45,877 bases of DNA, taken from positions 1 to 45,877 of IMG/VR virus record IMGVR_UViG_3300012920_000071; one strand, given 5' to 3'. The position numbers were made by a program, and so were the translations under genes. A model generated the notes under the pieces. It saw only the letters and a list, made by a program, of their open reading frames with translations, made no database searches and was not told the DNA's origin. Position 1 is the stretch's first letter. The number at the start of each line of letters is the position of its first letter. This document shows positions 6,047 through 45,435 of the stretch, piece by piece. The DNA is from a virus.

Positions 6047-6613
6047 ATGAGCGACTTAAAGTGGGCAAAAGGCATTCTCGAGAAGGTTGAGCAGGGCAAA
6101 GAAGTAAGCCAGGAAGACCTTCAGCGAGCAACAGAGATAACGCTAGACGAGGTGAAGAACAATGCTCCTCGTTATGCTAAAAACCAGACGGAACTTGCAG
6201 CCATATTTAAAGTAGACCGCAAAACCATACAAAGATGGCGTAAAGAGCCCGGTTTTCCTGTCCCCGCATCCAATGGTAAGTGGGATGTAGCCGCTACGCG
6301 CGAGTGGCTACGCGCGAATAATAAGATTGATAATAGTGACATTGAAGAGGAAGACCTGCATGAGCTCAAAATCCGTCAGTTAAAATTGATATGTGAAAAA
6401 CTGGAGCACGAGTTGAAGGTAAAGCGAGGTGAATATACCTTAAATGAGGATGTCCGTAGATGGGTTGCTACCATGGTGCAGGAGTCAAAAACCGTGCTTT
6501 TAAGCATTCCATCCAAGCTTGCTCCAATAATGGCTGGACTAGAACCTGCTGATGCTGAAGAGCGCCTCAAGGAAGCAATTGATGAGGCTTTGGAGCAACT
6601 GCACACCAGTTGA
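6047..6613 (+). CDS. terminase small subunit (Nu1-like)
   Basis: 188 aa. Residues about 45-95 (NQTELAAIFKVDRKTIQRWRKEPGFP ... WDVAATREWLRANN) form the winged helix-turn-helix DNA-recognition domain of lambda Nu1-type small terminases. The rest is a helical region (ELKIRQLKLICEKLEHELKV...) ending in a helix typical of oligomerisation or large-subunit contact. It recognises the packaging site and recruits the large terminase. It lies upstream of TerL but is separated from it by five small genes. No SD is visible before ATG 6047, and the predicted rightward promoter lies about 50 nt upstream. Confidence 0.85.
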   Translation: MSDLKWAKGILEKVEQGKEVSQEDLQRATEITLDEVKNNAPRYAKNQTELAAIFKVDRKTIQRWRKEPGFPVPASNGKWDVAATREWLRANNKIDNSDIEEEDLHELKIRQLKLICEKLEHELKVKRGEYTLNEDVRRWVATMVQESKTVLLSIPSKLAPIMAGLEPADAEERLKEAIDEALEQLHTS

Positions 6614-6632
6614 CATATGCCACTAAAGTATG
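6610..6632 (+). promoter_or_regulatory. GTTGACA-N14-ATG element (gene 6630)
   Basis: TTGACA at 6610-6615, 14 nt, then ATG 6630. The TGA inside it is the stop codon of the small terminase gene. No SD is present. Confidence 0.6.
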
Positions 6633-7304
6633 TTCGACCTTGAGCCATTTCATAACAATCCTACGCTAACGCTTTGCGATAGCTGCAAGTACAAGCCTAC
6701 TTGTTTGTCAAAAGGGAAGTGCTTATTGAAGTCTGCTCATTCTTTTACTGAGAAGTACCACTCAATGTTGTCTTTATTTAATGAGTCACCCGCGGGTAAC
6801 ATTGAATTAGCGAGGTATAAGACTAACCCTAAGACAGGGGAAAGAGTCCAAGTTACGGAGGTTAAAGATAAGGCTGTAGCAAAGAAATTGGATACACAGA
6901 AGAGTTGGACTCCCAGCAAGGTAAAGGACGATAAAATCAGAAAAAAGATAACAGAAGGTGAACTCTCCAAGAAAGAAGTTCCCCAGATGGATAAACCATT
7001 ACCATCACAGGGTGGAACTACCAGTACGGGTCAGCATAACAAGTTTAAACCTGAAGTACCTGAAGGGGGCAAAGTTCGCAGTACCACAAAGAACAGACCT
7101 AGCGTTACCCCAAAGACCCAATCGAAGTTGAAGGAGAAAGCAGGGGAATTATATGATTTATTTAGAGGCCAAGCAAAGGGAACATTAAACTCAGAGGATG
7201 TTGAGAAACTTGAAGGAGTGGTAAAGCGTCTCGCAGATAGAAGAGGCATATCAAGAGCGAAAGCCATCGGGATGCTGAAAAAAGTTGCAAGGCTACGTAA
7301 GTAA
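6630..7304 (+). CDS. basic protein with N-terminal Cys cluster, 224 aa
   Basis: Follows TerS. The N-terminus carries CDSCKYKPTCLSKGKC (residues about 16-31), a possible metal-binding Cys4 cluster. The remainder is Lys/Thr/Ser/Pro-rich and probably disordered, then a helical basic end (residues about 170-224, LKEKAGELYDLFRGQAKGTL ... AKAIGMLKKVARLRK). No family recognised. The start is fixed by the GTTGACA-N14-ATG element. Its position between the terminase subunits and its charge suggest a virion or DNA-associated protein. Confidence 0.65.
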   Translation: MFDLEPFHNNPTLTLCDSCKYKPTCLSKGKCLLKSAHSFTEKYHSMLSLFNESPAGNIELARYKTNPKTGERVQVTEVKDKAVAKKLDTQKSWTPSKVKDDKIRKKITEGELSKKEVPQMDKPLPSQGGTTSTGQHNKFKPEVPEGGKVRSTTKNRPSVTPKTQSKLKEKAGELYDLFRGQAKGTLNSEDVEKLEGVVKRLADRRGISRAKAIGMLKKVARLRK

Positions 7305-7306
7305 GT

Positions 7307-7328
7307 TGACATAGGGAACTTTATTATG
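7307..7328 (+). promoter_or_regulatory. GTTGACA-N13-ATG element (gene 7326)
   Basis: TTGACA at 7307-7312, just after the previous stop, 13 nt, then ATG 7326. The only near-perfect copy with a 13- rather than 14-nt gap. Confidence 0.6.
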
Positions 7329-7634
7329 AGTAAAATCGATGAATTAAACCGCCGGGTCATCGAGTTAGACGCGGCTCTCGACCAAGTGATTATTGCACGT
7401 GGCGAGAATCTAGCCGCTGAAATGGAATTTATGCATGGAGACTCCCATGAAAATGGGAAGAAACTTGCTGGTGGTGCTGCTCTTGCTGGTGGCGCAATCT
7501 ATGGGGGCATGGCAATGAAAAGAGCTGGTGGCCTTAAGCCCAAAAGAATGGGACGGGTTATGAAATATGATGCAAAGAGAGCCGGACGCTCTTTAGGTCG
7601 TGGTTTAAAAAAAATCGGAGGTTTCTTTAAATGA
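7326..7634 (+). CDS. small glycine-zipper protein, LxELN-type start, 102 aa
   Basis: Starts MSKIDELNRRVIELDAALDQ, an amphipathic helix similar to the starts of the genes at 7631, 8166, 8486 and 45433. A Gly/Ala run (KLAGGAALAGGAIYGGMAM, about residues 55-75) has the small-residue spacing of a glycine zipper and could insert in a membrane. The tail is strongly basic (KRMGRVMKYDAKRAGRSL...). Family role unknown; I infer a virion-ejected or membrane-active protein. Its stop overlaps the next start. Confidence 0.65.
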   Translation: MSKIDELNRRVIELDAALDQVIIARGENLAAEMEFMHGDSHENGKKLAGGAALAGGAIYGGMAMKRAGGLKPKRMGRVMKYDAKRAGRSLGRGLKKIGGFFK

Positions 7635-8173
7635 GTCGTATAATTGAACTAGGTGAATACCTCGATGAGGTAATTGATTCTAACATAGAGTTCCGCTCTA
7701 AATCGGATGAGAAGGATGCTTATGCTCCAACTCGCCCTATATCAAGAGCCCTTACTAGCCCAGCTACAGCTGGTGCTGTATATGCTGGTGGTGGTGCTTA
7801 TATGGCCAAAAAAGCATTTGATAAATTGCCAGCCAGCCAAAAAGATCGAATGGGTCAACAACTTGGTAAAATGGCAGGAGCTGTCTCAGGTAGACGTAAA
7901 GTTCCAGCAGCATTACGCAATCCAAAGACTGGTAGAATTTTACCAAAATACGTAAAACGCGGCAAAATAGGAGCTTTGGCTGGAGTAGGCGCACTTGCTG
8001 GTGGAACCGCAATGGCAACACAAAAACTTGCAAATGTATTGCAAGCAAGAGCTGCAGAAGGTCGCATCAACAAGCTAAAGCGCAAGGTTCGTAAGGCTGA
8101 TGCACTTGGTAAGACCAATAAGGCTGAAAGACTTGAACGTAAATTAAAGAAGAAGCAGAGCCGCTATGTATAA
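7631..8173 (+). CDS. glycine-zipper protein, LxELx-type start, 180 aa
   Basis: N-terminus MSRIIELGEYLDEVIDSNIE parallels the other LNELLDEAIE-type starts. Two Gly/Ala-rich segments follow (AGAVYAGGGAYMAKKAF at about 46-62 and IGALAGVGALAGGTAMATQK at about 113-132), separated by a very basic region; the C-terminus is a Lys/Arg coiled region. Good SD (GGAGG, 9 nt upstream). Overlaps both neighbours by a few nt. No annotated family recognised. Likely two membrane-prone segments in a cationic protein. Confidence 0.65.
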   Translation: MSRIIELGEYLDEVIDSNIEFRSKSDEKDAYAPTRPISRALTSPATAGAVYAGGGAYMAKKAFDKLPASQKDRMGQQLGKMAGAVSGRRKVPAALRNPKTGRILPKYVKRGKIGALAGVGALAGGTAMATQKLANVLQARAAEGRINKLKRKVRKADALGKTNKAERLERKLKKKQSRYV

Positions 8174-8489
8174 TACTGATAAACTTTACGAATTGAATGA
8201 GCTTCTTGATGAAGCTATTGAGTTTACTACCTTTAAGTACAAGCCACTCGGTAACCAAAGTGGCAATCAACCTGAGATTAGTGCTCCTGCTGTTGCTGAT
8301 ATTGAGCATGACAAAAAAGCAGCTGAGAGCAAACCTAAGACCTCACGTGCTAAGAAAGCCACCACTCCTGCTAAGAAAAAGTTCAATTTGAAAAAAGCAG
8401 GTAAGTATGGTGCTGTAGGTGCTGGAGCTTTAGGATTGGGTTATGGTGCTCACCACCTTTATCGTCAACATATGGCGAAAAAGAAGTGA
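8166..8489 (+). CDS. small glycine-zipper protein, LNELLDEAIE start, 107 aa
   Basis: Begins MYNTDKLYELNELLDEAIEF. A Lys/Ala/Thr-rich linker follows, then KYGAVGAGALGLGYGAHHLY (about 79-98) as the single Gly/Ala hydrophobic segment and a basic end (RQHMAKKK). The DNA encoding NELLDEAIE is almost identical to that at 8511-8531 of the next gene, pointing to recent duplication. Function unknown; same inferred class as its neighbours. Confidence 0.65.
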   Translation: MYNTDKLYELNELLDEAIEFTTFKYKPLGNQSGNQPEISAPAVADIEHDKKAAESKPKTSRAKKATTPAKKKFNLKKAGKYGAVGAGALGLGYGAHHLYRQHMAKKK

Positions 8490-8791
8490 AAAATCTCATT
8501 GCCCTAAATGAGCTTCTTGATGAAGCTATTGAGCTAGGTCACGGTACAGATCAGCCTTACAAGAAAAAGAACGCAAAGCGTGACGCAAGGACAGCGAAAA
8601 TGTCCGCGAAGAAGCAGGCTAAGATTCAAAAGTACATGGATAAGGGCGATTCCAAGTCAGAAGCTGAAAACCGATACGAACGACGTAGGTTGGCTAGAGC
8701 CATGTTTGTACCATACTCAACTCCTTTTGGTGCTGTAGGTGAAATATCCAGACAGCGACGCATTAGGGAGTATGAATCCCGTGCCAAGTAA
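8486..8791 (+). CDS. small basic protein, LNELLDEAIE start, 101 aa
   Basis: GTG start at 8486 overlapping the previous stop. The N-terminus MKNLIALNELLDEAIELGHG matches its neighbour. The rest is a highly basic helical protein (RDARTAKMSAKKQAKIQKYM ...) with a short less polar segment MFVPYSTPFGAVGEI but no full glycine zipper. Lys+Arg is far in excess of Asp+Glu. It may bind DNA or the capsid interior. Function unknown. Confidence 0.6.
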   Translation: MKNLIALNELLDEAIELGHGTDQPYKKKNAKRDARTAKMSAKKQAKIQKYMDKGDSKSEAENRYERRRLARAMFVPYSTPFGAVGEISRQRRIREYESRAK

Positions 8792-8827
8792 GAATTGACT
8801 TGTTATTACATGCCTCTTTAGTGAGGT

Positions 8828-10558
8828 ATGGACAATATAGTAGCGCAATCTGCGCGTGAAGCATGGAAGCCGGCTGACCGAAGAGCTCCTTGGGAGTGGG
8901 CAGAGGATAACTTTAAAGTAGCTGTTTCACCTTTCCCGGGAAAGTGGCGTTCAGACAACTCCCCATGGGTTAAGAAATTCATGGAGACTTTTGCGGATAA
9001 TAGAGTCCGTACTATTTCTGTAATGTGTTCTGCTCAGTCAGCTAAAACTGAGACAATGATCGCATGTCTTTGTTGGCTTATATCTGAAGATCCTGGGCCA
9101 ACTATGTGGGTAACATCTAATGAAGATGAGGCACTAAAGTTCGCTAAGGAGCGCATGATGCCATCACTTAAGGAATGCCCATTGGTAGAACAATTGATAC
9201 CGAAGTCTAGAGAACTTGCGAAGGCTAAGGAAATCTTCTTCCCGCATATGACTTTGGAGATTGTAGGCTCAAATGCACCATCTAAGCTACAATCTAAGCC
9301 TCGTAGATGGCTCCTACTTGATGAGGTACGAAACTGGCCGCCAGGTGCGTTACCTATGGTACTAAAACGTACACGTACCTACTGGAATGCTAGACAGCTG
9401 ATTATATCAACACCAGATGTAGAGCATGATGCTGTTCACCAAGAGTTCCTAAAAGGCAATCAGCAGATATGGAACGTAGTTTGTCCGAAGTGCGGAGAAA
9501 AGCATGAGCTTTCGTGGGAGTTCATAAAATGGGATAGTAACGATGTCACAAAGCCTGGTGGGAAGTACAACTTTGATGAACTATCAAAAACAATTCGCAT
9601 GGAGTGTCCAAATTGTGCCTACGCAACATATGACACACCTGCTGAAAGAAGAAGGCTTACGCATGGAGAGTGGGTAGAAACAAACCCAGATGCATCAGAG
9701 AAACGTAAGTCTTTTACGTGGTCGGCTCTTTTACCTACATGGGTGAGGTGGTCAGAGTTGGTTGAGGAGTTTCTTTCTGCTAAAAAAGCCCTATCATGGG
9801 GAGACCCACAGCCACTAAAGACTTTCATAACCGAATCACTGGGACAACCTTGGCAAGACCGACTTCGCTACAATCAAGGTGGTAACTGGTCTGAGGACAG
9901 AAAAGGCACATTTAGGCTTCTAGATAGGTGGGAAAATGAAACCCGCAGATTCCTAGGTGTAGATGTGCAAAAAGACCACCTTTTTTATGTATGTAGAGCG
10001 TTTGGAGAAAGAGGAATATCTCGCTTAATAGACTATGGTAAGATACCTGACTTTTCTTCACTACGGGAGAAGATAACTGAATTGCGTGTAGATGATGATG
10101 ATGTGGTCATTGACTCTGGTTATAATGCCACATCTATATACAATGAAGTGACCAAAAGTGGCTACTCATGGAAACCTATGAAGGGAGATGACTATCAATA
10201 CTTTGTAGTGGATGGTGTACGCCAACCATATAAAGATACCTTGGTAGACCCGGCAATGGGTACTACAATGCAAGGTCAAGTGAGACCAGTTCGGTTGTTT
10301 GTATTCTCAAATCCAGCAATCAAAGACCTTCTCTCAGAGTACACTCGAGGCATTGGTCCATCATGGGAGATCGCAGAGAATATCACCATGGATTATGTCC
10401 AGCAGATGAGTGCGGAACATCGTGAGGAAATAACAGATACTTACGGAAAAGTTTCCTATAAGTGGGTAAATAAACCCCGCCGACCAAACCACTACTGGGA
10501 CTGCGAGTGTATGATTATGGTGGCGGGGCTTGTAACGGGTTGCATTGGGGTCGCGTGA
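8828..10558 (+). CDS. terminase large subunit (GpA-like)
   Basis: 576 aa, GpA family. The ATPase half has a Walker A-like CSAQSAKTE (about 67-75) after SVM and a Walker B RWLLLDEVRNWP (about 158-170). Two CxxC pairs (CPKCGEKHEL and CPNCAYATY) form a probable zinc ribbon. The nuclease half follows with FLGVDVQKDHLFY and VVIDSGYNATSIY, the conserved acidic residues of the RNase H-like fold. It cuts and pumps DNA into the prohead. Start at 8828 is not preceded by an SD; a related TTGACT lies 27 nt upstream (8795-8800) and a three-codon ORF (8810-8821) sits between them. Confidence 0.92.
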   Translation: MDNIVAQSAREAWKPADRRAPWEWAEDNFKVAVSPFPGKWRSDNSPWVKKFMETFADNRVRTISVMCSAQSAKTETMIACLCWLISEDPGPTMWVTSNEDEALKFAKERMMPSLKECPLVEQLIPKSRELAKAKEIFFPHMTLEIVGSNAPSKLQSKPRRWLLLDEVRNWPPGALPMVLKRTRTYWNARQLIISTPDVEHDAVHQEFLKGNQQIWNVVCPKCGEKHELSWEFIKWDSNDVTKPGGKYNFDELSKTIRMECPNCAYATYDTPAERRRLTHGEWVETNPDASEKRKSFTWSALLPTWVRWSELVEEFLSAKKALSWGDPQPLKTFITESLGQPWQDRLRYNQGGNWSEDRKGTFRLLDRWENETRRFLGVDVQKDHLFYVCRAFGERGISRLIDYGKIPDFSSLREKITELRVDDDDVVIDSGYNATSIYNEVTKSGYSWKPMKGDDYQYFVVDGVRQPYKDTLVDPAMGTTMQGQVRPVRLFVFSNPAIKDLLSEYTRGIGPSWEIAENITMDYVQQMSAEHREEITDTYGKVSYKWVNKPRRPNHYWDCECMIMVAGLVTGCIGVA

Positions 10559-10568
10559 CCACCCAACC

Positions 10569-10620
10569 CAAAACCCTATAATAGGTAGTGAGCTACCGCC
10601 TACCTATTATTTTAGGGGGT
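10569..10620. terminator. hairpin between convergent genes
   Basis: Perfect 11-bp stem ATAATAGGTAG / CTACCTATTAT (10578-10588 / 10600-10610), loop 11 nt, followed by TTTA; outer CCCT/AGGG can extend it. It lies between the TerL stop and the stop of the leftward gene, so it could serve both directions, although the U-run is short. It is preceded by CAAAACCCTATAATA, a 15-mer repeated exactly at 43260-43274. Confidence 0.6.
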
Positions 10621-10628
10621 TATTGGGA

Positions 10629-11192
10629 TTAGAGGAGGGCCTTGTAGATTTCCATGATGGGCTTCATCGAGTTTGCTAGTAGACGCTTTTCATCATCAGT
10701 CCAAGAAGTCACAGGCTTTGATTTACATGCTTTCTTCCAATATTGCTCAATCTTAGAGCACAACCCAGGTATGCTTTCAAACCGTTGGTCTGAGCTTTTT
10801 GAGTATGTTGATTTCTCTCCATCGTGATCAATACCAAGGCACTGACGCAAGGAAGTGTACTTCCCACTATCCAAGTCCAATTGCCCTGATGCTTTTAGCT
10901 CATGCAGTTTGATATACTGATATGCTGTCTTTCTATTGAAATCGAGATTTTCCTTACACCAAGCTTTGAAGTCTTCAACTTCATCTCTAACTTGTGAAAG
11001 AACCTCACCCGCGCGTGCGAAATGCACAAGTGAAGAGGACATTGACTGTAAACCAGCCTGATGTGCTTCACGCACTTCCTCTACTCTATTGCGAGAACTA
11101 ACTATAACTCCCACTTCCTCTGTCTTCTCTATTACGGATACATGACCAGTAACGGTCAGGTTATCTAACTTACGTTCAGTAGCTGTACTCAT
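10629..11192 (-). CDS. DUF3102-like protein, 187 aa
   Basis: Leftward. Helical protein with VEDFKAWCKENLDFNRKTAYQYIKLHEL (here split over residues about 72-98), the pattern of DUF3102-type phage/plasmid proteins (fxxWcxxnlxfskrtAyxYixlxe) that look DNA-associated. The C-terminal half is basic. It overlaps the HTH gene by 4 nt, so both form one unit. It sits on the opposite strand inside the head operon. Likely a regulator or DNA-binding partner; function not proven. Confidence 0.6.
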   Translation of the reverse strand: MSTATERKLDNLTVTGHVSVIEKTEEVGVIVSSRNRVEEVREAHQAGLQSMSSSLVHFARAGEVLSQVRDEVEDFKAWCKENLDFNRKTAYQYIKLHELKASGQLDLDSGKYTSLRQCLGIDHDGEKSTYSKSSDQRFESIPGLCSKIEQYWKKACKSKPVTSWTDDEKRLLANSMKPIMEIYKALL

Positions 11193-11602
11193 TTATTTCT
11201 CTCTAACTGTATTTTTCTGTATTTTTCACAAGCGGCCAAAGATTTCTGACCTCTTGTGGGTGGAAGTCCAAAGTTTTTTTGAAATAGTTTCACTGATTTA
11301 CTCAGTGCTTGTTTAGTAACTCCATGCATCTCTGCAATCTCTTTCATTGATTTACCAAGGAAAAGAGGCAGACCGAAAGAGCAAACGATAGTTGCGATCT
11401 TTAGCCTGTAGTTACTGGAATCATATATCAGCGCAATGACTCTCGTTAGAGCATCCTGTACTTCGCGTCTCACCTTTTCTTTTATGTACTCCTGGAGCAC
11501 ATCTGGCATTTCTGAAAGAATACCGTCTTTATCAAGCTTGTCGTAATCGAAATCTATACTATCATAGTCGAACTCTACTTTGCCCTCGAGTAATGTTGAC
11601 AT
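11189..11602 (-). CDS. helix-turn-helix (sigma-like region) protein, 137 aa
   Basis: Leftward. The N-terminus is acidic (VEFDYDSIDFDYDKLDKDG). Residues about 92-112 (KSMKEIAEMHGVTKQALSKS) form a helix-turn-helix of the sigma-4 or resolvase type. SD AAGGAAAA precedes ATG 11602. Its ATG lies inside the GTTGACA box of the opposite-strand gene 11616, so the two divergent starts share DNA. A candidate transcription regulator of the late genes or of its own cassette. Confidence 0.65.
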   Translation of the reverse strand: MSTLLEGKVEFDYDSIDFDYDKLDKDGILSEMPDVLQEYIKEKVRREVQDALTRVIALIYDSSNYRLKIATIVCSFGLPLFLGKSMKEIAEMHGVTKQALSKSVKLFQKNFGLPPTRGQKSLAACEKYRKIQLERNK

Positions 11603-11618
11603 CGTTTTCCTTGGTATG
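11596..11618 (+). promoter_or_regulatory. GTTGACA-N14-ATG element (gene 11616)
   Basis: TTGACA at 11596-11601, 14 nt, then ATG 11616. Overlaps the start codon of the leftward HTH gene. Confidence 0.6.
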
Positions 11619-11894
11619 AGCGTGGCTAACTGGAAGGTAATCTACCGAGATTACACGAGTGAAGAAATTGCAGAGGAACTTGCAACATTAAAAAAAGAGG
11701 CTAAAAATATGTACTTAGCCCAGAGTGTTGGCAATAAATCTTACCAACGCAGCATCACAAGTGTAGAGGAGCGGCTACGGGCTATCGCGGAAATCAAACG
11801 TGAGCAGGGTGGAAATTCATATAACGACTCTTACTATGTTGACTTTCGTGGCGAAGGTCAAATTGAATGGGGTAACCGCAATAGAATACCATGA
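11616..11894 (+). CDS. head-to-tail joining protein, gpW-like
   Basis: 92 aa. Start chosen at ATG 11616 because the GTTGACA element sits 14 nt upstream and the upstream extension would overlap the divergent gene. Helical protein with IAEELATLKKEAKNMYLAQS and a C-terminus WGNRNRIP. Size and place (immediately before the portal) match lambda gpW-type head completion proteins. Overlaps the portal start (ATGA). Confidence 0.65.
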   Translation: MSVANWKVIYRDYTSEEIAEELATLKKEAKNMYLAQSVGNKSYQRSITSVEERLRAIAEIKREQGGNSYNDSYYVDFRGEGQIEWGNRNRIP

Positions 11895-16947: not shown

Positions 16948-17373
16948 ATGCAAGAAGAAGAACGTAAAGAAGCGATTAAGAAAGCAGGTCGAGCCGCTGG
17001 TGCTGTCGCAGCTGGTGGTGCATACTGGAAAGCCGCAAGAGATAATCAAATACTCAAAAATGCTAATGAAGACCGAAAGGGCTTTAGGCGGGATTTGGAG
17101 CAAAAGAAAAAAGCTGCTTTTGAAGAATATAAAGCAAAGAGGGGTGGAGATGCATCCATGGATAGCTGGCTAAAAGGAGAGGGTAAAGAGCACGCAGGTA
17201 TTGAGGCAAAGAAAAACAAGTATAATGACTTTATAGAGAAGAGAGATAAGGTAAAATTCATAGACACTCCAGGAAGCCACAAAACTGCGATATTTAAAAA
17301 TCGCTTTAGGCATCTGTACAACAGAATGAATCTCGGAAAAGCAAGGCTCCCCAGAATCCTCACACGTGTATGA
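16948..17373 (+). CDS. basic protein with N-terminal glycine-zipper segment, 141 aa
   Basis: ATG 16948 immediately after the previous stop. Starts MQEEERKEAIKKAGRAAGAV, then AVAAGGAYWKAA; Gly/Ala spacing suggests a short amphipathic or zipper helix. The rest is a Lys-rich helical chain. Ends over the start of the decoration fusion (4-nt overlap). Same inferred class as the previous genes. Function unknown. Confidence 0.55.
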   Translation: MQEEERKEAIKKAGRAAGAVAAGGAYWKAARDNQILKNANEDRKGFRRDLEQKKKAAFEEYKAKRGGDASMDSWLKGEGKEHAGIEAKKNKYNDFIEKRDKVKFIDTPGSHKTAIFKNRFRHLYNRMNLGKARLPRILTRV

Positions 17374-20488: not shown

Positions 20489-20513
20489 CCAACAACAAAA
20501 AATTGCGTAAAAG

Positions 20514-20536
20514 TTGACTCCAACGTTTTTATTATG
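20514..20536 (+). promoter_or_regulatory. GTTGACT-N14-ATG element (gene 20534)
   Basis: TTGACT at 20514-20519, 14 nt, then ATG 20534. One mismatch from TTGACA. No SD upstream. Confidence 0.55.
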
Positions 20537-22197: not shown

Positions 22198-22547
22198 ACC
22201 ATAATGATGTTATATCATTACCTGTCACCACTGCATCGTCAGCTGGTGACATTATGGTTTTAAATAGTGATGGTACTTGTACTCCTTATGGAGCCGGCAA
22301 TACTAAAGAGAAGGCAATAGGCGTTGCATTACATGATGTTGATCCTACGGAAGTAGGTGATCCACATGCCATCCACTTATTCGGTGGGATATTCGTAGCT
22401 AAGGCAGGTGGCCCCATATCAATTGGTGATATCGTGGGCATACGTGATGGTGTAGCTACCTTGCAAAACTCCGGCACAATACGTCAAGTTGGGATAGCAC
22501 TTGAAAACCTTACAGGTGTCGGTCTAATTAGAGTCATATCAACATGA
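22194..22547 (+). CDS. head decoration-like protein, copy 2, 117 aa
   Basis: GTG start overlapping the previous stop. Begins MNHNDVISLPVTTASSAGDI, same start as the domain at 17370 and the protein at 23674. Pattern of Gly-x-V and small beta strands (EKAIGVALHDVDPTE ... VGIALENLTGVGLIRVI) fits decoration/DUF2190-type capsid proteins. Lies just before the protease gene. A capsid surface or assembly role is inferred. Confidence 0.65.
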   Translation: MNHNDVISLPVTTASSAGDIMVLNSDGTCTPYGAGNTKEKAIGVALHDVDPTEVGDPHAIHLFGGIFVAKAGGPISIGDIVGIRDGVATLQNSGTIRQVGIALENLTGVGLIRVIST

Positions 22548-23659
22548 ACGAAGACATTCATTTTTTTAACGCAGTAGATGGTCGTATCGACCCTGATGCG
22601 GGTGTAGTAAGAGGTGTTTCCTTAATAACCATGGGTACTGCTCGTGGTCACAATCTTGAGGTAGATGATAAAACACTCACACAACTAAAAGAATCACTTG
22701 ATAGCACACCACCACCAGGTATCAAAGCTAAGTTGAATCATCGCTCTGGGGTTGAAGCTGTATTCGGTTATATCAACAACTTCCAAGTTGAAGGTAATAA
22801 GCTTACTGGTGACCTAAACATGCTAAGGCATCACAAAGACTTTAATCAGACGATGGAGCAAATAACTACGATGCCCGGTCAGATAGGACTTTCGGTTGCT
22901 TTTCAAGGAGACAAAGAACCGGGTAAGGATGGAAAAGTTTATGCTCGCTGTAAGCGAATAGTCTCCGTAGATTTAGTACCTGATCCGGCAGCTAACCCGG
23001 ACGGGATGTTTGAAAGTAAAGTTGACAACGACATAGTGTATATGGACCAGGAACCTAATGTAGAGGAACTCCTTCAGGGCATCGCAGAGCGCCTTGACGG
23101 CGTTGAGGAATTTCAAGGCAACTTGGAAGAAGCAATCGCAGACCAGCTAACTGAAGATTACTCTGATGAAGATTACTCTGATGAGGATTATTCTGATGAA
23201 GCTGATTATGCCGACGATGAAGTCGAATATGAGGATTCTTACGAGGATTCTGAAGCAGAGTACGAGCCAGTCGAATACTCCAGCATTGATGATGCCTTGA
23301 CTTACCTTGAGGCTAAAGCTGAAGGCGCTCTTGCCGCTGAAGAGGAAGCTCGTGAAAATATGCTTTTTGAAAATGTAGAGGACAAAGTTGTTGAGCTCGC
23401 TGAGATCAACCAGCAGCTACAAGCTGAAAACGAAGTACTACAGGAAGCTCTTGAACTTCAAGAGGTAGAGGCTGTACCAACTTCATCAGAAGCTTTCTTG
23501 TTCGGCGCAGATGCCGGTGAAGGAACTTTTGAGTTCGCTATTCAACAACACGCTTCTGGCGAAGCTGAAAGTAGCCACGAAGCAATTCGTTCTGCTGTTG
23601 CTGACTCTCCAGCTGCTCACCGTGACTGGCTAATACGCCAAGGAATCTTAGAAAACTAA
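22544..23659 (+). CDS. prohead serine protease with scaffold-like C-terminus
   Basis: 371 aa. Residues 1-160 are a capsid maturation protease: KAKLNHRSGVEAVFGYINNF (His66), a loop TTMPGQIGLSVAF (Ser117 as likely nucleophile) and VDLVPDPAANPDGMFES. Downstream is an acidic part with DYSDE repeats (about 205-219), then a coiled coil (AEINQQLQAENEVLQEALEL, about 284-303). This matches protease-scaffold polyproteins such as lambda C, whose second half (Nu3) is also made separately from an internal start; here see 23042. It lies just upstream of a decoration gene and the capsid gene. Confidence 0.85.
   Translation: MNEDIHFFNAVDGRIDPDAGVVRGVSLITMGTARGHNLEVDDKTLTQLKESLDSTPPPGIKAKLNHRSGVEAVFGYINNFQVEGNKLTGDLNMLRHHKDFNQTMEQITTMPGQIGLSVAFQGDKEPGKDGKVYARCKRIVSVDLVPDPAANPDGMFESKVDNDIVYMDQEPNVEELLQGIAERLDGVEEFQGNLEEAIADQLTEDYSDEDYSDEDYSDEADYADDEVEYEDSYEDSEAEYEPVEYSSIDDALTYLEAKAEGALAAEEEARENMLFENVEDKVVELAEINQQLQAENEVLQEALELQEVEAVPTSSEAFLFGADAGEGTFEFAIQQHASGEAESSHEAIRSAVADSPAAHRDWLIRQGILEN
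23022..23044 (+). promoter_or_regulatory. internal GTTGACA-N14-ATG element
   Basis: TTGACA 23022-23027, 14 nt, then in-frame ATG 23042 (Met167 of the protease gene). Same spacing as in front of other late genes. Confidence 0.55.
23042..23659 (+). CDS. predicted internal start: scaffold protein, 205 aa
   Basis: Same frame as the protease; would start at Met167 (MDQEPNVEELLQGIAERL). Contains all the acidic repeats and the coiled coil but none of the protease domain, which is what a scaffolding protein should look like. Evidence is the GTTGACA-N14-ATG element (23022-23041), identical in spacing to that of other late genes, plus the known lambda C/Nu3 precedent. Expression itself is inferred. 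Confidence 0.5.
   Translation: MDQEPNVEELLQGIAERLDGVEEFQGNLEEAIADQLTEDYSDEDYSDEDYSDEADYADDEVEYEDSYEDSEAEYEPVEYSSIDDALTYLEAKAEGALAAEEEARENMLFENVEDKVVELAEINQQLQAENEVLQEALELQEVEAVPTSSEAFLFGADAGEGTFEFAIQQHASGEAESSHEAIRSAVADSPAAHRDWLIRQGILEN
23156..23200 (+). repeat. three 15-nt tandem repeats (DYSDE)
   Basis: GATTACTCTGATGAA repeated three times with one or two substitutions, coding DYSDE x3 in the acidic linker of the scaffold region. Likely slippage-prone and of variable copy number. Confidence 0.8.
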
Positions 23660-25128: not shown

Positions 25129-25162
25129 AAAAGGGGCGGCTCAATCGAGTCGTCCCTTTTTG
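25129..25162 (+). terminator. intrinsic terminator after the capsid gene
   Basis: GGGGCGGCTC (25133-25142) pairs with GAGTCGTCCC (25147-25156) over a 4-nt loop, flanked by AAAA and TTTTTGTT; ten pairs, two of them G-U. A textbook rho-independent terminator, which separates the head operon from the tail operon. The next gene's GTTGACA box starts directly behind it. Confidence 0.85.
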
Positions 25163-25185
25163 TTGACATAAACATTCTTGTTATG
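25163..25185 (+). promoter_or_regulatory. GTTGACA-N14-ATG element (gene 25183)
   Basis: TTGACA 25163-25168, 14 nt, ATG 25183. Directly downstream of the terminator, so this copy opens a transcription unit or follows read-through. Confidence 0.6.
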
Positions 25186-25706: not shown

Positions 25707-26451
25707 TTCATATCAAGACCCCAAAAGAGAAGTAGAGCTTACAATATGTAGGCATCTAAAAGAAGCTACCCAAGTACCATTTTTTCCAAACAAAGGAGAC
25801 CTGGAGCATGAGCTTCCATTTGGAGCTGTTCTATGTGAGTCCATGAAACCGCTACTTGGTGGTAGTCTACCAAGAGGTTACAGATGCGATGTGCGAGTGG
25901 TTTACGTAAGTCACATGGATGAAGTTGGCTCCTTAGAGCACTCAATGGCTATCGCAAGGATAGAAGATGCTTTGAATAAGATACCCCAAGACAAAACTAG
26001 CCCCCAGGTGGTCGAGTTTATAGTTCAAGGAGGCAGGGGCGATAAGTTTGATTACGACATTGGTAATGGTATGACTACCTTAGAATCTGGTAATAATACA
26101 AACCCCGGTTTATTACTTGCTCAAGAAGTTGATAAAGACCCAATACTAAGCGCGTCTTATGAAATCATAAATGAGTATTCAGTTTTTTCTGAGACAAAAG
26201 TAAAGGTCACAGGTGATAGGGATGGTAGACCTTTTACTTTTAACATTAGTGTAAATACTGATGAATCTACAATAGCAAACATCAAGGAATTCACTCAAAC
26301 TAATGGAGTGGTCAATGAGTATGATCTTGAGAATAATCACACAAAGATTGTTGGTCTTTACGTAATGGACATTCAGGAGTCAAGTGAAGCACAATCCTTT
26401 GGTGACCTTTTTGTGTGTAGAGTTGCTGTTGTTGGGGAAAGCAACTGTTAG
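25699..26451 (+). CDS. tail terminator/completion-like protein with C-terminal extension, 250 aa
   Basis: Residues about 1-105 (REVELTICRHLKEAT ... RCDVRVVYVSHMDEVGSLEH ... ARIEDALNKI) resemble the small tail terminator (gpU/tail completion) family, where a strand of this type precedes a helix. Residues 106-250 form a second part (GGRGDKFDYDIGNGMT..., SYEIINEYSVF, DLFVCRVAVVGESNC), which a standard terminator lacks. Possibly an N-terminal terminator domain fused to a second virion domain. Confidence 0.5.
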   Translation: MIDSYQDPKREVELTICRHLKEATQVPFFPNKGDLEHELPFGAVLCESMKPLLGGSLPRGYRCDVRVVYVSHMDEVGSLEHSMAIARIEDALNKIPQDKTSPQVVEFIVQGGRGDKFDYDIGNGMTTLESGNNTNPGLLLAQEVDKDPILSASYEIINEYSVFSETKVKVTGDRDGRPFTFNISVNTDESTIANIKEFTQTNGVVNEYDLENNHTKIVGLYVMDIQESSEAQSFGDLFVCRVAVVGESNC

Positions 26452-26474
26452 TTGACAAAGGGCTTTTTAGTATG
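26452..26474 (+). promoter_or_regulatory. GTTGACA-N14-ATG element (gene 26472)
   Basis: TTGACA 26452-26457, overlapping the previous TAG stop region, 14 nt, ATG 26472. Confidence 0.6.
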
Positions 26475-26883: not shown

Positions 26884-27237
26884 ATGGCAAAAGAAGAATG
26901 TGGTAAGTTTTTATTTGGTACAACAGCTGTTACAGGCATCTCAATTGCGGTTGAGAGTACATCATCTGAGTCAAATCCTCAGTACCAAGCTGAAGCTAAA
27001 AATAAAGATGGAGAAACTGAGGCTATCAAGGTTGGAAAGCTTACAGGCTCTTGTACTGTAAGTGGCTTTAAGAAAAGTGGAGCGGAAGAACCTAAAATTG
27101 GCGACACGTTTCCTCTTGATGGAGAAACTTTTTTTGTAGACAAAGTTACAGTTACACAATCCAATGAAGATTTCCAAAAAATGGAAGTTGTAGGGAAATT
27201 CTGGCAAGGTGTAACCACGGTGTGTCCGAATGCTTAA
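26884..27237 (+). CDS. tail tube-like protein, copy 2, 117 aa
   Basis: Paralog of the previous gene: ISIAVESTSSESNPQYQAEA, then TEAIKVGKLTGSCTVSGF, with the same spacing. No GTTGACA box and no clear SD before ATG 26884. Duplication of a tube gene could give two tube components or a tip/terminator variant. Which copy is the main tube protein cannot be told from sequence. Confidence 0.55.
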   Translation: MAKEECGKFLFGTTAVTGISIAVESTSSESNPQYQAEAKNKDGETEAIKVGKLTGSCTVSGFKKSGAEEPKIGDTFPLDGETFFVDKVTVTQSNEDFQKMEVVGKFWQGVTTVCPNA

Positions 27238-36533: not shown

Positions 36534-36783
36534 AGGAGAAATACTTAGAGATGAAGCCATCGAGCACTTTCGTAATCGAGCAAAAGCAAAATACGATGCA
36601 GGGCAGGAACAACATGGTGGATTTCTTAAAGATAGGGTAGATTGGAAGGACTTAGAGGACGAGTCTATTGACTTTATGTTTTACCTTTATGCTCTGATGA
36701 ATAAAAAAGAAGAGGAGATACTACAACTTAAGAATAAGATAAAGTCTCTTGAATCTAGAATGTTAGAAATAGACTCGCGTTGA
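36526..36783 (+). CDS. MazG-like protein, 85 aa
   Basis: Contains AKAKYDAGQEQHGGFLKDRV ... LEDESIDFMFYLYALM. The KYxxGQxEHGG ... EsiDxxxYL pattern is that of small MazG-like all-alpha phage proteins (possible nucleotide pyrophosphohydrolase). The acidic ExxxD residues of the second helix are present. C-terminal coiled coil (KEEEILQLKNKIKSLESRML). Overlaps the previous gene by 8 nt. Confidence 0.6.
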   Translation: MTKGEILRDEAIEHFRNRAKAKYDAGQEQHGGFLKDRVDWKDLEDESIDFMFYLYALMNKKEEEILQLKNKIKSLESRMLEIDSR

Positions 36784-36802
36784 CAACACTCGGTAGGTTG
36801 TG
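36780..36802 (+). promoter_or_regulatory. GTTGACA-N14-GTG element (holin-like gene)
   Basis: TTGACA 36780-36785 contains the previous TGA stop; 14 nt, then GTG 36800. The spacing rule identifies this start. Confidence 0.5.
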
Positions 36803-36940: not shown

Positions 36941-36943
36941 TGT

Positions 36944-40679: not shown

Positions 40680-40789
40680 TGTGGTTGTTTCATTGTTGGG
40701 AGTGAGGTTCACGGTGTTTTTTCATACCTTTCCACACCAAAGGGATATTGCTTTTATATGTAGGGCATAACCTGCCTCACTCCCATACA
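40680..40789. repeat. intergenic gap with 10-bp inverted repeat
   Basis: GGGAGTGAGG (40698-40707) and CCTCACTCCC (40775-40784) are perfect complements, 67 nt apart, the right arm ending 5 nt before ATG 40790. Between them lies GGTGT/ACACC. No SD precedes the next gene, so this could be a long-range leader structure hiding or presenting the start. Confidence 0.55.
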
Positions 40790-41302: not shown

Positions 41303-43253
41303 AAAGACTAGGGAGTACTTGGAGCTTGGTGCTCCAGAAGGACAGCGTAATGCTGAACTATTCAACGCTGCATGTCAGCTACGTGATGCCAACTGGCCAC
41401 TTCATGTAATGGATGAGCTTTTAACCCGTAGAGGGCGCCTTGATGGTTTGCCTGAGAGCGAGATAAAAGCCTGTATACAGTCGGTGTTAAAGTCACCTGC
41501 TAGACAACCCTTACTGGAGAGTAAGCATCGCATACCTAATCTTATTAACCAGTTTAAGATTCAACAGCCTGAACCTGAACCTGAGCCAATTGTTTATGCG
41601 TTGGATGAAGGAGACAGATTACCTGAGCCAATTGAGGAAGATGCTACAAAGATATTCTTAGAGACCATATTCTCTCCAGAGGATAAGATACAGATAGTTG
41701 TAGGTCACAAGAACGAGGAGGGTGTCGAAGTCCCTTCAGGTAATCACCCAACTCTTCCTTTGCGCCTTTGGTTAGATAAGATTGAATCAAAGGGTGGCAT
41801 TCAGAACGTCTTTCCTGCGATGGATGAGGGGGGTCGGATTAATCAAGGAATGTACATTGCTATCAACCCACTCATCGATCCTAAGTTGGGGAGGAAAAAG
41901 AAGAATGTATCAAGATTTGATCACGCTTTAATTGAGTTTGATTCGATTAGTACGACTCAGCAGTGGCAATTGATAAAGAAAAGCCGGATACCTTGTGCTA
42001 CTGTGTGCTTCTCAGGTGGTAAGTCACTTCATGCTTTGGTGCGTGTAAATGCAAGAAACCAAGAGGAGTATGACACACGTGTTGATAAGTTACTTCAGCA
42101 TTTCTCGGAGTATGAGGTAGATACCCAAAACCGTGACCCATCAAGACTGTCTAGGCTACCTGGAGTCATCCGAGGTGACACGGGTAATGCCCAGACTTTG
42201 TTGGCAACAAACATGGGCGCAAAGAGTTGGAATGAGTGGGAAGACTTCACCTCTGACAACTTTCCATCAATACTCACACAGGAGGATTTCTATAATGAGG
42301 ATATTACTGAGCCAACTCCCATAATAGAGGGTCTACTCAATAGACAGTTGAGCCTAGTGATTGGTGGAAGTTCTAAAACTTATAAGTCATGGACACTATT
42401 GGACATGGCGATATCCACAGCCAATGGTTTGCCCTTTTGGGGGTTCAATACCCATGCAGGAAAGTGCCTCTACATCAACTTTGAGATACCTGACTATTAT
42501 ATGCGGGAAAGGGTTAAGAGTATATGCTCTGCGAAGAACCTAGAGCTGCCATCAGAGAACCTATACATATGGAACTTACGTGGTAGAGCACAAGCACTAG
42601 AGACTATAAGGCCAAAGTTCCAGAAGATGATGGCTAATGCAAACTTCGCTATGGTTATCCTTGATCCAATATACAAGACTCTTGGTAACCGAGATGAGAA
42701 CGCTGCGGGTGATATAAATTCACTAATGAATGAGATGGAGCACTTGGCTCTAGAGACAGGAGCCGCGGTTGTATTCGCAACACACTTTAGTAAGGGTAAT
42801 CAGGCTCAAAAGAGCTCAATTGATCGCATATCAGGTAGTGGGGTTTTCGCAAGGTCACCTGACACTATCCTAGTGATGACGGAGCATGAGGAGGATGGTT
42901 GTTTTAGTGTCGAATCAACGGTGCGTAACTATCAGACACCGAAGCCTTTTGTGGTTCAAATGGACTTTCCTTTATTCAAGAGGGTTGATGAATTTGACCC
43001 CGCAAAACTAAAGAGACCAGGTGGAAGACCAGAGGCTCCTGATGTGGTTCCAGAGATCATAGATTTACTTTCCAAGGAAGATTGGGTTGACCAGCCAATA
43101 GTAGTTGCAACCATGACTGAAAGAGGACATTCAGCTTCAACAATCAAGCGGCAAATACAAAAGGCCGTATCTGAGAAGAAGATAGTCCGCGAAAGTAAGC
43201 CAGGTAAAGCATCCAAGCTCAAACGAGGTAACTTAACCCACAAGTTGGGGTAG
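41280..43253 (+). CDS. RepA-like ATPase with primase-like region, 657 aa
   Basis: SD AAAGGAG. N-terminal helical part (about 1-100), then a primase-like segment (about 205-320: SRFDHALIEFDSISTTQQ ... CATVCFSGGKSLHALVRVNA ... NRDPSRLSRLPG), then a RepA/RecA-like ATPase (LVIGGSSKTYKSW as P-loop near 359, FAMVILDPIYKTLGNRDEN as Walker B, VVFATHFSKG). The C-terminal 80 aa look like a winged helix (WVDQPIVVATMTERGHSAST). A combined primase-helicase for phage replication. No separate DNA polymerase is seen in the window. Confidence 0.8.
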   Translation: MELPKIPRKTREYLELGAPEGQRNAELFNAACQLRDANWPLHVMDELLTRRGRLDGLPESEIKACIQSVLKSPARQPLLESKHRIPNLINQFKIQQPEPEPEPIVYALDEGDRLPEPIEEDATKIFLETIFSPEDKIQIVVGHKNEEGVEVPSGNHPTLPLRLWLDKIESKGGIQNVFPAMDEGGRINQGMYIAINPLIDPKLGRKKKNVSRFDHALIEFDSISTTQQWQLIKKSRIPCATVCFSGGKSLHALVRVNARNQEEYDTRVDKLLQHFSEYEVDTQNRDPSRLSRLPGVIRGDTGNAQTLLATNMGAKSWNEWEDFTSDNFPSILTQEDFYNEDITEPTPIIEGLLNRQLSLVIGGSSKTYKSWTLLDMAISTANGLPFWGFNTHAGKCLYINFEIPDYYMRERVKSICSAKNLELPSENLYIWNLRGRAQALETIRPKFQKMMANANFAMVILDPIYKTLGNRDENAAGDINSLMNEMEHLALETGAAVVFATHFSKGNQAQKSSIDRISGSGVFARSPDTILVMTEHEEDGCFSVESTVRNYQTPKPFVVQMDFPLFKRVDEFDPAKLKRPGGRPEAPDVVPEIIDLLSKEDWVDQPIVVATMTERGHSASTIKRQIQKAVSEKKIVRESKPGKASKLKRGNLTHKLG

Positions 43254-43322
43254 GTAACTCAAAACCCTATAATATATATTGGTTCACCCCCAAGGTGGGC
43301 TTAAAGGCCACCACCTTGGGTA
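43245..43322 (+). promoter_or_regulatory. putative promoter and hairpin
   Basis: TTGGGG (43245-43250), 17 nt, TATAAT (43268-43273). It is followed by a perfect 10-bp hairpin CCCAAGGTGG/CCACCTTGGG (43289-43298 / 43311-43320). The 15-mer CAAAACCCTATAATA recurs at 10569. Either a promoter with an attenuator hairpin or a terminator-like end of the replication operon; no U-run is seen. Confidence 0.45.
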
Positions 43323-43646
43323 GTGGACACCAACACAATTACTACCATGGAAGTTGAAATGATAAACAGGGACGGAGTTCCCTTTGGGAGAATCTACAAA
43401 AAAATCTTAACACTCAAATCACGGATTGGTGACATCAATAGGATTTGTGCAAACACGATCCTAGAGCATGGAAACAAATTTAATTGGGTGTGGCTATCCA
43501 ATTTGGAGACAGGTGGGATTCATTGCATGGATACCGCCGACCTCATCAAGCAACCATGTGATGATGATGGTTATCTTCTGGTCAAGTGCGATGACTTTAG
43601 GGTTATAGGCCCAGATGAGATACAGGAGCAGTTTGATGATTTCTGA
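43323..43646 (+). CDS. hypothetical protein, 107 or 99 aa
   Basis: Start uncertain: GTG 43323 lies 2 nt after the hairpin, ATG 43347 (MEVEMINRDGVPFG) is further in; neither has an SD. No family recognised; mixed polarity with a Cys pair (GGIHCMDTADLIKQPCDDDG). Ends inside the next gene. Confidence 0.55.
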   Translation: MDTNTITTMEVEMINRDGVPFGRIYKKILTLKSRIGDINRICANTILEHGNKFNWVWLSNLETGGIHCMDTADLIKQPCDDDGYLLVKCDDFRVIGPDEIQEQFDDF

Positions 43647-43941
43647 TCTATCAGAAGGACCAGAGTCCACTCCACCAAGACTGCTATTTCCTATAGTAAA
43701 TGCTATAATACATTCACATGATGAACCCATTTGGGAAGCAACTATACCTGTGTTTGCTAAATGGATAAAGAGTCATGTGGATGTTATATCAAGAGACAAG
43801 GATTGGAGTGTGGAGTCTATAATGGACGGAAAGTGTCCTGTTGAGTTAGAGGTTGAAAAAGATAATGGATTAACAATTGTTATATTTGTGGAAGGATGGG
43901 AGTACGCAAATCTAAGAACAATGATAAATATAGGAGAATGA
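43636..43941 (+). CDS. hypothetical protein, 101 aa
   Basis: ATG 43636 overlaps the previous gene by 11 nt; an upstream ATG (43615) exists. Starts MISDLSEGPESTPPRLLFPI. No known family; acidic C-terminal half. The stop is followed directly by the SD and start of the methyltransferase, so likely co-transcribed. Confidence 0.6.
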   Translation: MISDLSEGPESTPPRLLFPIVNAIIHSHDEPIWEATIPVFAKWIKSHVDVISRDKDWSVESIMDGKCPVELEVEKDNGLTIVIFVEGWEYANLRTMINIGE

Positions 43942-43942
43942 G

Positions 43943-45331
43943 ATGTGGATATTAGCGACAAAGAAATTACGTGCATTGGCTTGTTTACCGGAGGAGGAGC
44001 GCTCGAGCTCGGAGTTAGAAGAATTATCCCAAACCTGCGAATGCTCGCTTATGTGGAGATCGAAGCCTATGCGGTCACCCTCTTGGCTCAAAAAATTGAA
44101 AGGGGGGAGTTGGATGAAGCACCTATCTTCACTGATGTTACCCAATTCCCTGCAGAACTCTTTCGTGACAAAGTACACCTCGTCGTTGCCGGATATCCAT
44201 GCCAAGATTTCTCCACCGCAGGGAAAAGAGCAGGACTGGAGGGTAATCGCGGAAAGATGTGGGGATACACCAGGTCAGTTGTATCTAGACTTCGAGCCAG
44301 AGCCTTCTTTGGAGAAAATGTTGAAGGCCACGTGTCGCTTGGACTCGACACAGTCGTCAGCGATTTGGTTGAAGATGGTTTCATGGTTAAGGGAGGATTA
44401 TATTCGGCGTTCGAGGTTGGTGCGCCTCATCTTAGAAAGCGAATATTCACATTATCATTCCGAACAGACCCACACACAGGTGGATGGGAGCATGCAAGAA
44501 CAGGAAACCAAGGATGGCTTGACCTCGCAGACGCAGAGTTCCAAGCAATTACCACAGGAAGAGTGCAACTGGCCGACCCCTCAAGTATCAGACGGGAACG
44601 GAGCAGCGAATCCACTACGAGAGGATCATCGGAAGCAATTGAGAGATGTGGAGACGGGCTTGGGGGAGATGTGGCCAACACCAACAACAGCAGAGGGGGG
44701 GAAGATCAGTTGTCAGCCGAACTACGGACAGACGGGACTGAGCAATCATCCATCGATTGTGGGGGAGGTTACCAGACCCAAGGGAGAGAAGAGCCGAAGC
44801 TGGCCGACCCCAGTAGTGACGGATTGCTCAGACGAAGACCTGAAGACATGGGAGAAGAGGTGCGAGAAGCACGGAGAAATGATGCAGAGACCTCTCAGGA
44901 TTGCGGTTCAACAGGATATGCTAGAGGAAGCCATGAAGAGTGGCCAATTAGGTGGCCAGCAAGACCCGGAAACCGACAGCATGACTGGGAAGCCCCTAGA
45001 GTCTTGGGCAACCCCGAACACAATGGATCACCTGCCGCCGAGATCGGAGGAAGCCACAGAGAGGATGATGACGGGGGCAAGGAAGGGGAGATCAGCTCCA
45101 AGCAACCTTCGGGAGCAAGTAGACCCAAAGACGATGAAAGCATGGGCGACTCCAAGGACACTGGATGCGGACGGGCTGATGATGAATGTAAAGAAAAGGG
45201 GTCTACAGCCAGAGAACACACTTTGCGGTCAAGCAGCGAATCAAGTGAAGAGCAAGAAGCTCAATCCGTCATGGGTGGAGAGTCTGATGATGTTACCCGC
45301 GGGTTACACTCAAATAGAATCGACAGACTAA
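43943..45331 (+). CDS. overlapping second-frame protein with WPTP repeats, 462 aa
   Basis: Open for 462 codons in another frame over nearly all of the methyltransferase. The C-terminal half repeats WPTP/WATP (44570, 44672, 44801 and further at about 45008 and 45143) and ends KLNPSWVESLMMLPAGYTQI. I know this pattern (WPTP tracts ... LNPxWVExLMGxPxGWT) from stand-alone phage proteins, so this frame looks conserved rather than accidental. Each WPTP pairs with a LADP/VANT/LGNP unit of the methyltransferase frame. The true start is unknown; ATG 43943 with the same SD is only one option. The N-terminal third may be non-coding noise. Confidence 0.5.
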   Translation: MWILATKKLRALACLPEEERSSSELEELSQTCECSLMWRSKPMRSPSWLKKLKGGSWMKHLSSLMLPNSLQNSFVTKYTSSLPDIHAKISPPQGKEQDWRVIAERCGDTPGQLYLDFEPEPSLEKMLKATCRLDSTQSSAIWLKMVSWLREDYIRRSRLVRLILESEYSHYHSEQTHTQVDGSMQEQETKDGLTSQTQSSKQLPQEECNWPTPQVSDGNGAANPLREDHRKQLRDVETGLGEMWPTPTTAEGGKISCQPNYGQTGLSNHPSIVGEVTRPKGEKSRSWPTPVVTDCSDEDLKTWEKRCEKHGEMMQRPLRIAVQQDMLEEAMKSGQLGGQQDPETDSMTGKPLESWATPNTMDHLPPRSEEATERMMTGARKGRSAPSNLREQVDPKTMKAWATPRTLDADGLMMNVKKRGLQPENTLCGQAANQVKSKKLNPSWVESLMMLPAGYTQIESTD

Positions 45332-45426
45332 GAATGCTTGGAAATGGTGTGGTATGGCTTACTGCGGCAAAAGCCTTTAGCGAAATGCTTGACCAACATA
45401 GGTCAGACTGGGTTGACACAACCTAG
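43945..45426 (+). CDS. DNA (cytosine-5) methyltransferase
   Basis: GTG start 43945 after AGGAG. Motifs in order: I FTGGGALELG (about 14-23), IV GYPCQDFS (catalytic Cys86), VI ENV (124-126), VIII LRKRIF, then the C-terminal motif IX/X RMLGNGVVWLTAAKAF. It methylates cytosine, protecting phage DNA from host restriction, or marking DNA. Between motif VIII and X (about 180-440) the chain is a long hydrophilic insertion with repeats LADAEF, LADPSS, VANTNN, LADPSS, LGNPEH, MGDSKD. This insertion is where a second open frame overlaps it (see next feature). Confidence 0.9.
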   Translation: MDISDKEITCIGLFTGGGALELGVRRIIPNLRMLAYVEIEAYAVTLLAQKIERGELDEAPIFTDVTQFPAELFRDKVHLVVAGYPCQDFSTAGKRAGLEGNRGKMWGYTRSVVSRLRARAFFGENVEGHVSLGLDTVVSDLVEDGFMVKGGLYSAFEVGAPHLRKRIFTLSFRTDPHTGGWEHARTGNQGWLDLADAEFQAITTGRVQLADPSSIRRERSSESTTRGSSEAIERCGDGLGGDVANTNNSRGGEDQLSAELRTDGTEQSSIDCGGGYQTQGREEPKLADPSSDGLLRRRPEDMGEEVREARRNDAETSQDCGSTGYARGSHEEWPIRWPARPGNRQHDWEAPRVLGNPEHNGSPAAEIGGSHREDDDGGKEGEISSKQPSGASRPKDDESMGDSKDTGCGRADDECKEKGSTAREHTLRSSSESSEEQEAQSVMGGESDDVTRGLHSNRIDRLRMLGNGVVWLTAAKAFSEMLDQHRSDWVDTT

Positions 45427-45435
45427 TTTAGTATG
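45413..45435 (+). promoter_or_regulatory. GTTGACA-N14-ATG element (gene 45433)
   Basis: TTGACA 45413-45418 inside the methyltransferase end, 14 nt, ATG 45433. Confidence 0.6.

Follow-up and report, generated by a model that had tools for sequence, protein, structure and literature searches.

Nine times in a 45,877-base virus record of IMG/VR (IMGVR_UViG_3300012920_000071; the whole record is called the window, or W, below), a GTTGAC(A/T) heptamer is followed by 14 nucleotides (nt), the last of which is a T, and then by an ATG or GTG start codon. This element is real, conserved and phage-specific, and it is an element of late genes. We read it, with somewhat better than even confidence, as a late promoter made of one motif, acting in DNA, from which leaderless or nearly leaderless mRNAs would be made. 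We did not find a paper on this element among open-licence papers.

The element and its place before late genes

The starts that carry the element are at 6630, 7326, 11616, 20534, 23042, 25183, 26472, 36800 (GTG) and 45433. All nine sites had been named in the original prediction, and the G before TTGACA/T and the T before the start codon are present at each of them; the gap, given there as 13 nt in one case, is exactly 14 nt in all nine. In the list below, the fractions give homologs with the element.

6609–6632, plus strand: GTTGACA-N14-ATG of gene 6630, which follows the gene labelled small terminase; 10 of 10 homologs
7305–7328, plus strand: GTTGACA-N14-ATG of gene 7326, coding for a small basic protein; 7 of 7 homologs
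11595–11618, plus strand: GTTGACA-N14-ATG of gene 11616, a small gene between terminase and portal; 14 of 16 homologs
20513–20536, plus strand: GTTGACT-N14-ATG of gene 20534; no homolog found for comparison
23021–23044, plus strand: GTTGACA-N14-ATG at the in-frame internal start 23042 of the open reading frame (ORF) 22544–23659, presumably a scaffold start; 8 of 10 homologs
25130–25161, plus strand: strong intrinsic terminator 3′ of the major capsid gene; its T-run directly touches the next element
25162–25185, plus strand: GTTGACA-N14-ATG of gene 25183; 4 of 6 homologs have it at the gene start, and one more (G009) has it at a short ORF upstream
26451–26474, plus strand: GTTGACA-N14-ATG of gene 26472; 6 of 7 homologs
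36779–36802, plus strand: GTTGACA-N14-GTG of a 46-amino-acid membrane-protein-like ORF (holin-like by look only)
45412–45435, plus strand: GTTGACA-N14-ATG of an ORF running off the right end; the sole homolog found (G006, 29% identity) is without the element

The heptamer alone is not enriched in the window (12 copies of GTTGACW, with W for A or T, where 13.8 are expected), and therefore the non-random property is its position. Nine of the 12 copies stand 14 nt 5′ of a start codon, and those at 11838, 15461 and 17875 do not. The longer pattern GTTGACW-N13-TATG occurs 8 times, against a mean of 0.04 and a largest count of 1 in 100 dinucleotide shuffles of the window, so that the proposed shuffle test supports the element. 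All 8 are on the forward strand and none on the reverse strand, and the reversed pattern does not occur. GTTGAC at 12–15 nt 5′ of ORF starts also ranks first among the 6-mers of the window scored by position (p = 1e-7, uncorrected for the many 6-mers and distances). A further copy said to precede the large terminase gene (TerL), at 8795, does have the 27-nt gap claimed for it, but it reads ATTGACT; it was left out of the set because a similar TTGACT is found only in L002 among the 14 TerL homologs with upstream sequence (18 rows were compared, 4 of them without a start codon).

Relatives were gathered by searches with TerL and the capsid protein, with terminase identities to the window of 44–87%. 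Many of them repeat the element with the same spacing, in records of 40–66% GC. Among 97 distinct sites, chosen on the condition of a start codon 12–18 nt away, the gap is 14 nt in 61, 13 in 10, 15 in 10, 16 in 11, 17 or 18 in 4, and 12 in 1. The triplets 13–16 nt 3′ of the element in core records are ATG (67), GTG (8), ATT (2), ATA (2) and CTG (1), with no TTG. In GC-rich relatives the core GTTGAC persists and the seventh base is no longer fixed. The strand ratio of GTTGAC-N14–18-ATG is 11:1 in G401 (locus L043, 66% GC; control 0) and 9:0 in G403 (locus L046, 61% GC; control 1), with a weaker bias in G402 (5:2, control 1), G014 (11:3, control 2), G405 (4:0, control 2) and G404 (2:0, control 3). 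When 6-mers are ranked by their distance to ORF starts (uncorrected p), GTTGAC or TTGACA comes first in W, G006, G007, G010, G011 and L043 and is in the top six in G008, G009 and G014.

The preference for late genes, also predicted, holds for homologs of window genes in 18 records or loci (some close to each other, L029 and G011; rows in which no start was found are included, and at least one element, G008 8913, was missed by the count). The element is absent at the capsid gene (0 of 10 rows), TerL (0 of 18), gene 27827 (0 of 7), RecT (0 of 6) and primase (0 of 6), and rare at the start of ORF 22544 (2 of 11), the portal gene (2 of 18) and the small terminase gene (1 of 13). At 26884 it occurs in 1 of 7 rows, where it probably belongs to the neighbouring gene. 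In a terminase-profile scan of cellular genomes, we found five relatives with 31–44% identity, one in a metagenome-assembled genome and four in Verrucomicrobiota, and because of these four the host phylum of the phage group is likely Verrucomicrobiota.

In the 56 non-redundant sites with a 14-nt gap, the conserved parts are GTTGACA (by selection), an AT-rich stretch at spacer positions 9–13, the T at −1 (T in 49 sites, C in 6, A in 1, G in none) and the start codon (ATG in 49, GTG in 7). Nothing is conserved upstream of the element in these sites, and no conserved −10 or −35 stands alongside it. The Shine–Dalgarno (SD) sequence is weak at 7 of the 9 element starts of the window, with anti-SD pairing of −5 kcal/mol or better at 7326 and 36800 only, and the element itself is without the SD core (AGGAG). 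Over a gene list chosen by hand, pairing of that strength occurs in the left arm at 6 of 7 genes, at 4 of 7 right early genes, at 1 of the 2 leftward genes that lie between TerL and portal, and at 7 of the other 22 late genes. The claim that SD sequences are lacking at element starts is mostly true.

Terminators, distances and a candidate factor

At 6 of 10 capsid-gene ends (W, G010, L019/G007, L011/G008, L021/G011 and G009; 11 rows, with L022 cut off), a strong terminator is followed 0–9 nt later by (A/G)TTGAC(A/T) and the next start. The hairpin at the capsid-gene end contains GTTGAC in L044 and L046. In L043 (at 21513) and L046 (at 16709), GTTGAC is inside a terminator hairpin with the T-run between it and the start codon, and RNA carrying the element from upstream would therefore end before the start codon, while newly started RNA would begin 3′ of the element. 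Among ORFs of at least 80 amino acids with homologs in at least two other records, a terminator abuts 5 of 22 with the element and 1 of 258 without it. A first count gave 7 of 145 element starts versus 11 of 3140 other start triplets (p = 6e-6), with controls that are mostly non-gene starts, five of the seven at one orthologous junction, and a weak case in G007 (plus strand, 3268).

The position fixed relative to the start codon, on which the original prediction leaned, holds in the core clade and is not strict in the wider group, because in distant relatives some elements stand further away. Eight such sites, 28–71 nt from the start, were picked by hand from 50 leftover copies in ten records, and some may be due to chance:

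G009: 13654
G010: 32245 and 2417
G013: 10086, 15488, 19698 and 20683
G014: 32309

At 22 sites where no start codon at 13–15 nt constrains the bases, a pyrimidine–purine (Y|R) step is present at spacer position 13|14 or 14|15 in 17, versus 202 of 477 in the background (p = 9e-4). On the minus strand of G009, from 29081, ATTGACA-N14-ATG opens a 20-codon ORF, the stop of which overlaps the real gene's start, an arrangement like that of translational coupling; this ATG at 14 nt fits leaderless initiation and equally a translation signal. Between the two options left by the original prediction, a translation signal and a phage-specific transcription signal, the terminators that adjoin or overlap the element and the distances of 28–71 nt favour transcription, short of proof.

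In a promoter of this kind, GTTGAC(A) would be bound as DNA upstream of the start site, and transcription would begin about 14–15 nt downstream at a Y|R step. In the core clade, that step would be the T|A or T|G of the start codon, and late mRNAs beginning there would be leaderless or have leaders of a few nt. The enzyme would presumably be the host RNA polymerase. A factor that could direct it is encoded at one of the elements themselves:

11189–11602, minus strand: 137-amino-acid helix-turn-helix (HTH) protein, the candidate factor; its start codon lies inside the element at 11595
10629–11192, minus strand: 187-amino-acid protein encoded downstream of the HTH gene; all 9 relatives compared have a homolog; DUF3102 match weak (E = 0.11)

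In core relatives, the element at 11616 reads GTTGACAT, and its CAT doubles as the start codon of the divergent HTH gene. The CAT serves as the divergent start in 17 of 21 rows; a longer frame was chosen by the script in G009, L014 and L015, and the ORF in L043 is unrelated. The HTH gene, divergent from 11616, is found in 22 of the 23 loci L001–L023 (L016 ends just after TerL), and distant relatives of it occur in G013, G014, L038, L041–L044 and L046. The HTH region of the protein is well modelled, and the acidic N-terminus, with a conserved F-x-Y, is poorly modelled. Sequence and fold searches with it returned generic HTH matches or a family of no known function (the best PHROG match). We considered it as a relative of the small terminase and saw no likeness. 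That this small divergent protein is a phage factor and the late activator is plausible, if somewhat short of an even chance; it might recruit the polymerase and, bound across the start codon of its own gene, act there as a repressor. The 187-amino-acid protein is a possible partner.

Points against the promoter, rival readings and known systems

Several observations weigh against a one-motif promoter. All five ORFs with an abutting terminator are one gene, 3′ of the capsid gene, in five relatives, and are not independent, so that the terminator support comes mainly from one gene junction; at the capsid-gene end, both terminator and element are missing in G014 (L045), and G013 has the hairpin 3′ of the element. 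Upstream hairpins are not enriched overall (mean −6.1 versus −6.4 kcal/mol, 80 sites). The Y|R test was post hoc, its eight long-distance sites were chosen by the authors, G012 7703 (18 nt, no Y|R) was dropped from it, L006 is nearly a duplicate of L007, and the site G014 13304 is doubtful. The core clade keeps an ATG near 14 nt, even at the 20-codon upstream ORF of G009, and translation, too, could benefit from the T at −1. In the scan of all 6-mers, the element is outside the top ones in G012, G013, L038 and L041. We did not see a −10 element in the 56 sites, and the promoter must therefore be assumed to open DNA from one motif. As to the factor, the fold of the HTH model matches generic HTH only, none at E ≤ 0.001, and a second clade (L111–L161) shares only the HTH segment and has few element-like sites; these include one at an internal start and another that precedes the gene in the 11616 position. 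The searches for polymerases and factors covered the single-subunit family PF00940, which was silent together with its controls, and sigma region 2, which was not found in 10 records, no search being aimed at a gp55 relative by name.

The main rival is a translation signal, to which we give distinctly less credence: GUUGACA in the mRNA, 13–17 nt 5′ of the start codon, would be read by a protein, of phage or host, or by rRNA, and would recruit 30S to late genes without SD. The narrow range of distances to start codons within the core clade, the weak SD at most element starts, the element at an internal in-frame start, the many overlapping late genes without the element, and the ATG retained at 14 nt in the short ORF of G009 all speak for it. 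The terminator T-runs between element and start codon in L043 and L046 speak against it, as do starts 32–71 nt from the element in G013 and G014. No perfect 7-nt complement of GTTGACA is present in the 16S pieces of two genomes (model positions 359–1520 in G001 and 9–873 in G005, with the very 3′ end outside both); the 6-mer GTCAAC occurs twice in locus L162, counted over the whole locus.

Improbable, in our view, is a set of repressor or roadblock sites, HTH-bound, that would silence late genes early in infection. The models for it are the stoperators of L5-like cluster A mycobacteriophages, more than 20 asymmetric, oriented 13-mers that lie in promoters and in short intergenic spaces, are recognised by an HTH protein and act in immunity and repression (PMC9283540). 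As in L5, the sites here are asymmetric, in many copies and in one orientation (8 forward and 0 reverse in the window, with the ratios given above for G401 and G403), in short intergenic spaces, and the HTH gene overlaps one of them. A roadblock would presumably need neither a constant spacing from the start codon nor a T|R step, and stoperators are not known to keep such a spacing. A search of 10 records for Phage_integrase was negative and so gave no sign of lysogeny; the records may be fragments, and the search was not aimed at serine integrases.

In sigma70 promoters, the −35 and −10 hexamers are 16–18 nt apart, transcription starts about 7 nt 3′ of the −10, and the −35 consensus is TTGACA. 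The element could be taken for an ordinary host −35 box with an unrecognised −10, but a −10 at 16–18 nt would lie inside the gene, past the start codon, and the misfit with sigma70 geometry noted in the original prediction stands, with no −10 at any fixed place in the 56 sites. Matches of the pattern in 387 Verrucomicrobiota genomes have counts that resemble the control (by eye), and we regard this reading as very unlikely. An extended −10 or a TATG-only promoter was rejected, since GTG starts exist and no −10 was found; a host-wide element found no support either, with matches in 152 of the 387 genomes and counts like those of the reversed control (by eye, not summed). Chance or shared descent of coding sequence can hardly be the explanation: the element does encode a conserved Lys/Arg-Val-Asp at the internal start, but the shuffle counts and its retention at several different genes, in records of such different GC content, speak against it.

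Several known systems come close in part. T4 late promoters, served by the host polymerase with gp55 and other phage factors, also consist of a single motif, which differs in being of the −10 type (TATAAATA). In the jumbo phage AR9, the late promoters of the non-virion RNA polymerase read AACA-N6-T(A/G), with A/G as the start site (PMC5312081). The likeness is a single short upstream motif with T(A/G) at the start; the differences are 6 nt between motif and T where this element has 13, untranslated leaders of 26–491 nt, and two multisubunit polymerases encoded by AR9. In the phiKZ late promoters, TATG overlaps the start site, with G as +1 (PMC7618050); TATG over the presumed start site is shared, whereas the element here is also found at GTG starts and has GTTGAC as its conserved part. 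Compared with the non-virion polymerase motifs of both phages, only T(A/G) is common, and GTTGAC stands mostly 13–17 nt from the start. The start-associated sequence (SAS) of cluster K mycobacteriophages has AGGAG at the ribosome-binding position, its function being left open (PMC3203893). It is likewise a repeated asymmetric motif before many gene starts, nearly all in one orientation, and GTTGACA differs from it in having no SD core and in lying further upstream. AR9, phiKZ, SAS and stoperators each share a part of the pattern and each differ in at least one feature.

The phage group and the meaning of the element

The window has no exact terminal overlap of 15 bases or more, no near match among named phages (searched with its first 25 kb) and no Rfam match. 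It encodes a gpA-type large terminase, a lambda-type portal, a primase-like AAA protein, the major head protein, recombination genes and a cytosine methylase. The labels scaffold, small terminase, holin-like, tape-measure position, and connector for 11616 come from position and look only and were unconfirmed by family searches. At 1028–2284 (minus strand), an AAA ATPase (AAA_5) lies within the leftward gene arm, which is mostly without family matches. Five small basic proteins, starting at 7326, 7631, 8166, 8486 and 45433 (plus strand), have a common N-terminal peptide L-x-E-L-x-E-x-L-D-x-x-I, loosest in 7326; it may resemble a capsid-targeting peptide or a cleaved propeptide of internal virion proteins. 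Three proteins of 972, 117 and 117 amino acids, starting at 17370, 22194 and 23674 (plus strand), begin with a near-identical M/V-NHN-x-VISLP segment and are possibly capsid decoration proteins. Relative to the window, loci L029 and L030 carry an inversion: the terminase is on the strand opposite to the one with the 11616 homolog and the element belonging to it. At 6027–6039, immediately 5′ of the gene labelled small terminase, TTATAGATAACTA is found, with similar stretches ahead of that gene in several relatives; it is possibly a separate promoter or operator. The motif TTATRNATAACTA 5′ of the same gene was rejected as a repeated promoter (9 matches with at most 2 mismatches, against 8.5 expected).

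Taken in its full form, the promoter reading would describe a new promoter class, which we put forward as a tentative and rather doubtful proposal. The 137-amino-acid HTH protein would redirect the host RNA polymerase to a one-motif GTTGAC promoter (at about −21 to −15) without a −10 and with the start codon as start site; in some relatives, the terminator of one unit would sit embedded in the promoter of the next. The phage itself is of ordinary size, and searches for a single-subunit polymerase and for sigma region 2 found neither in it. With the start site at the start codon, late genes, including the internal scaffold-type start, would therefore be expressed from separate leaderless mRNAs.

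If this is true, the late regulon of an uncultivated phage group would be recognisable from sequence alone, together with the exact start sites of late genes, nested ones included, and one small protein would be indicated as the switch. Another kind of bacterial promoter would be added, working from a single motif placed upstream at an almost constant distance from the start codon, and leaderless translation in the presumed Verrucomicrobiota hosts would become directly testable.

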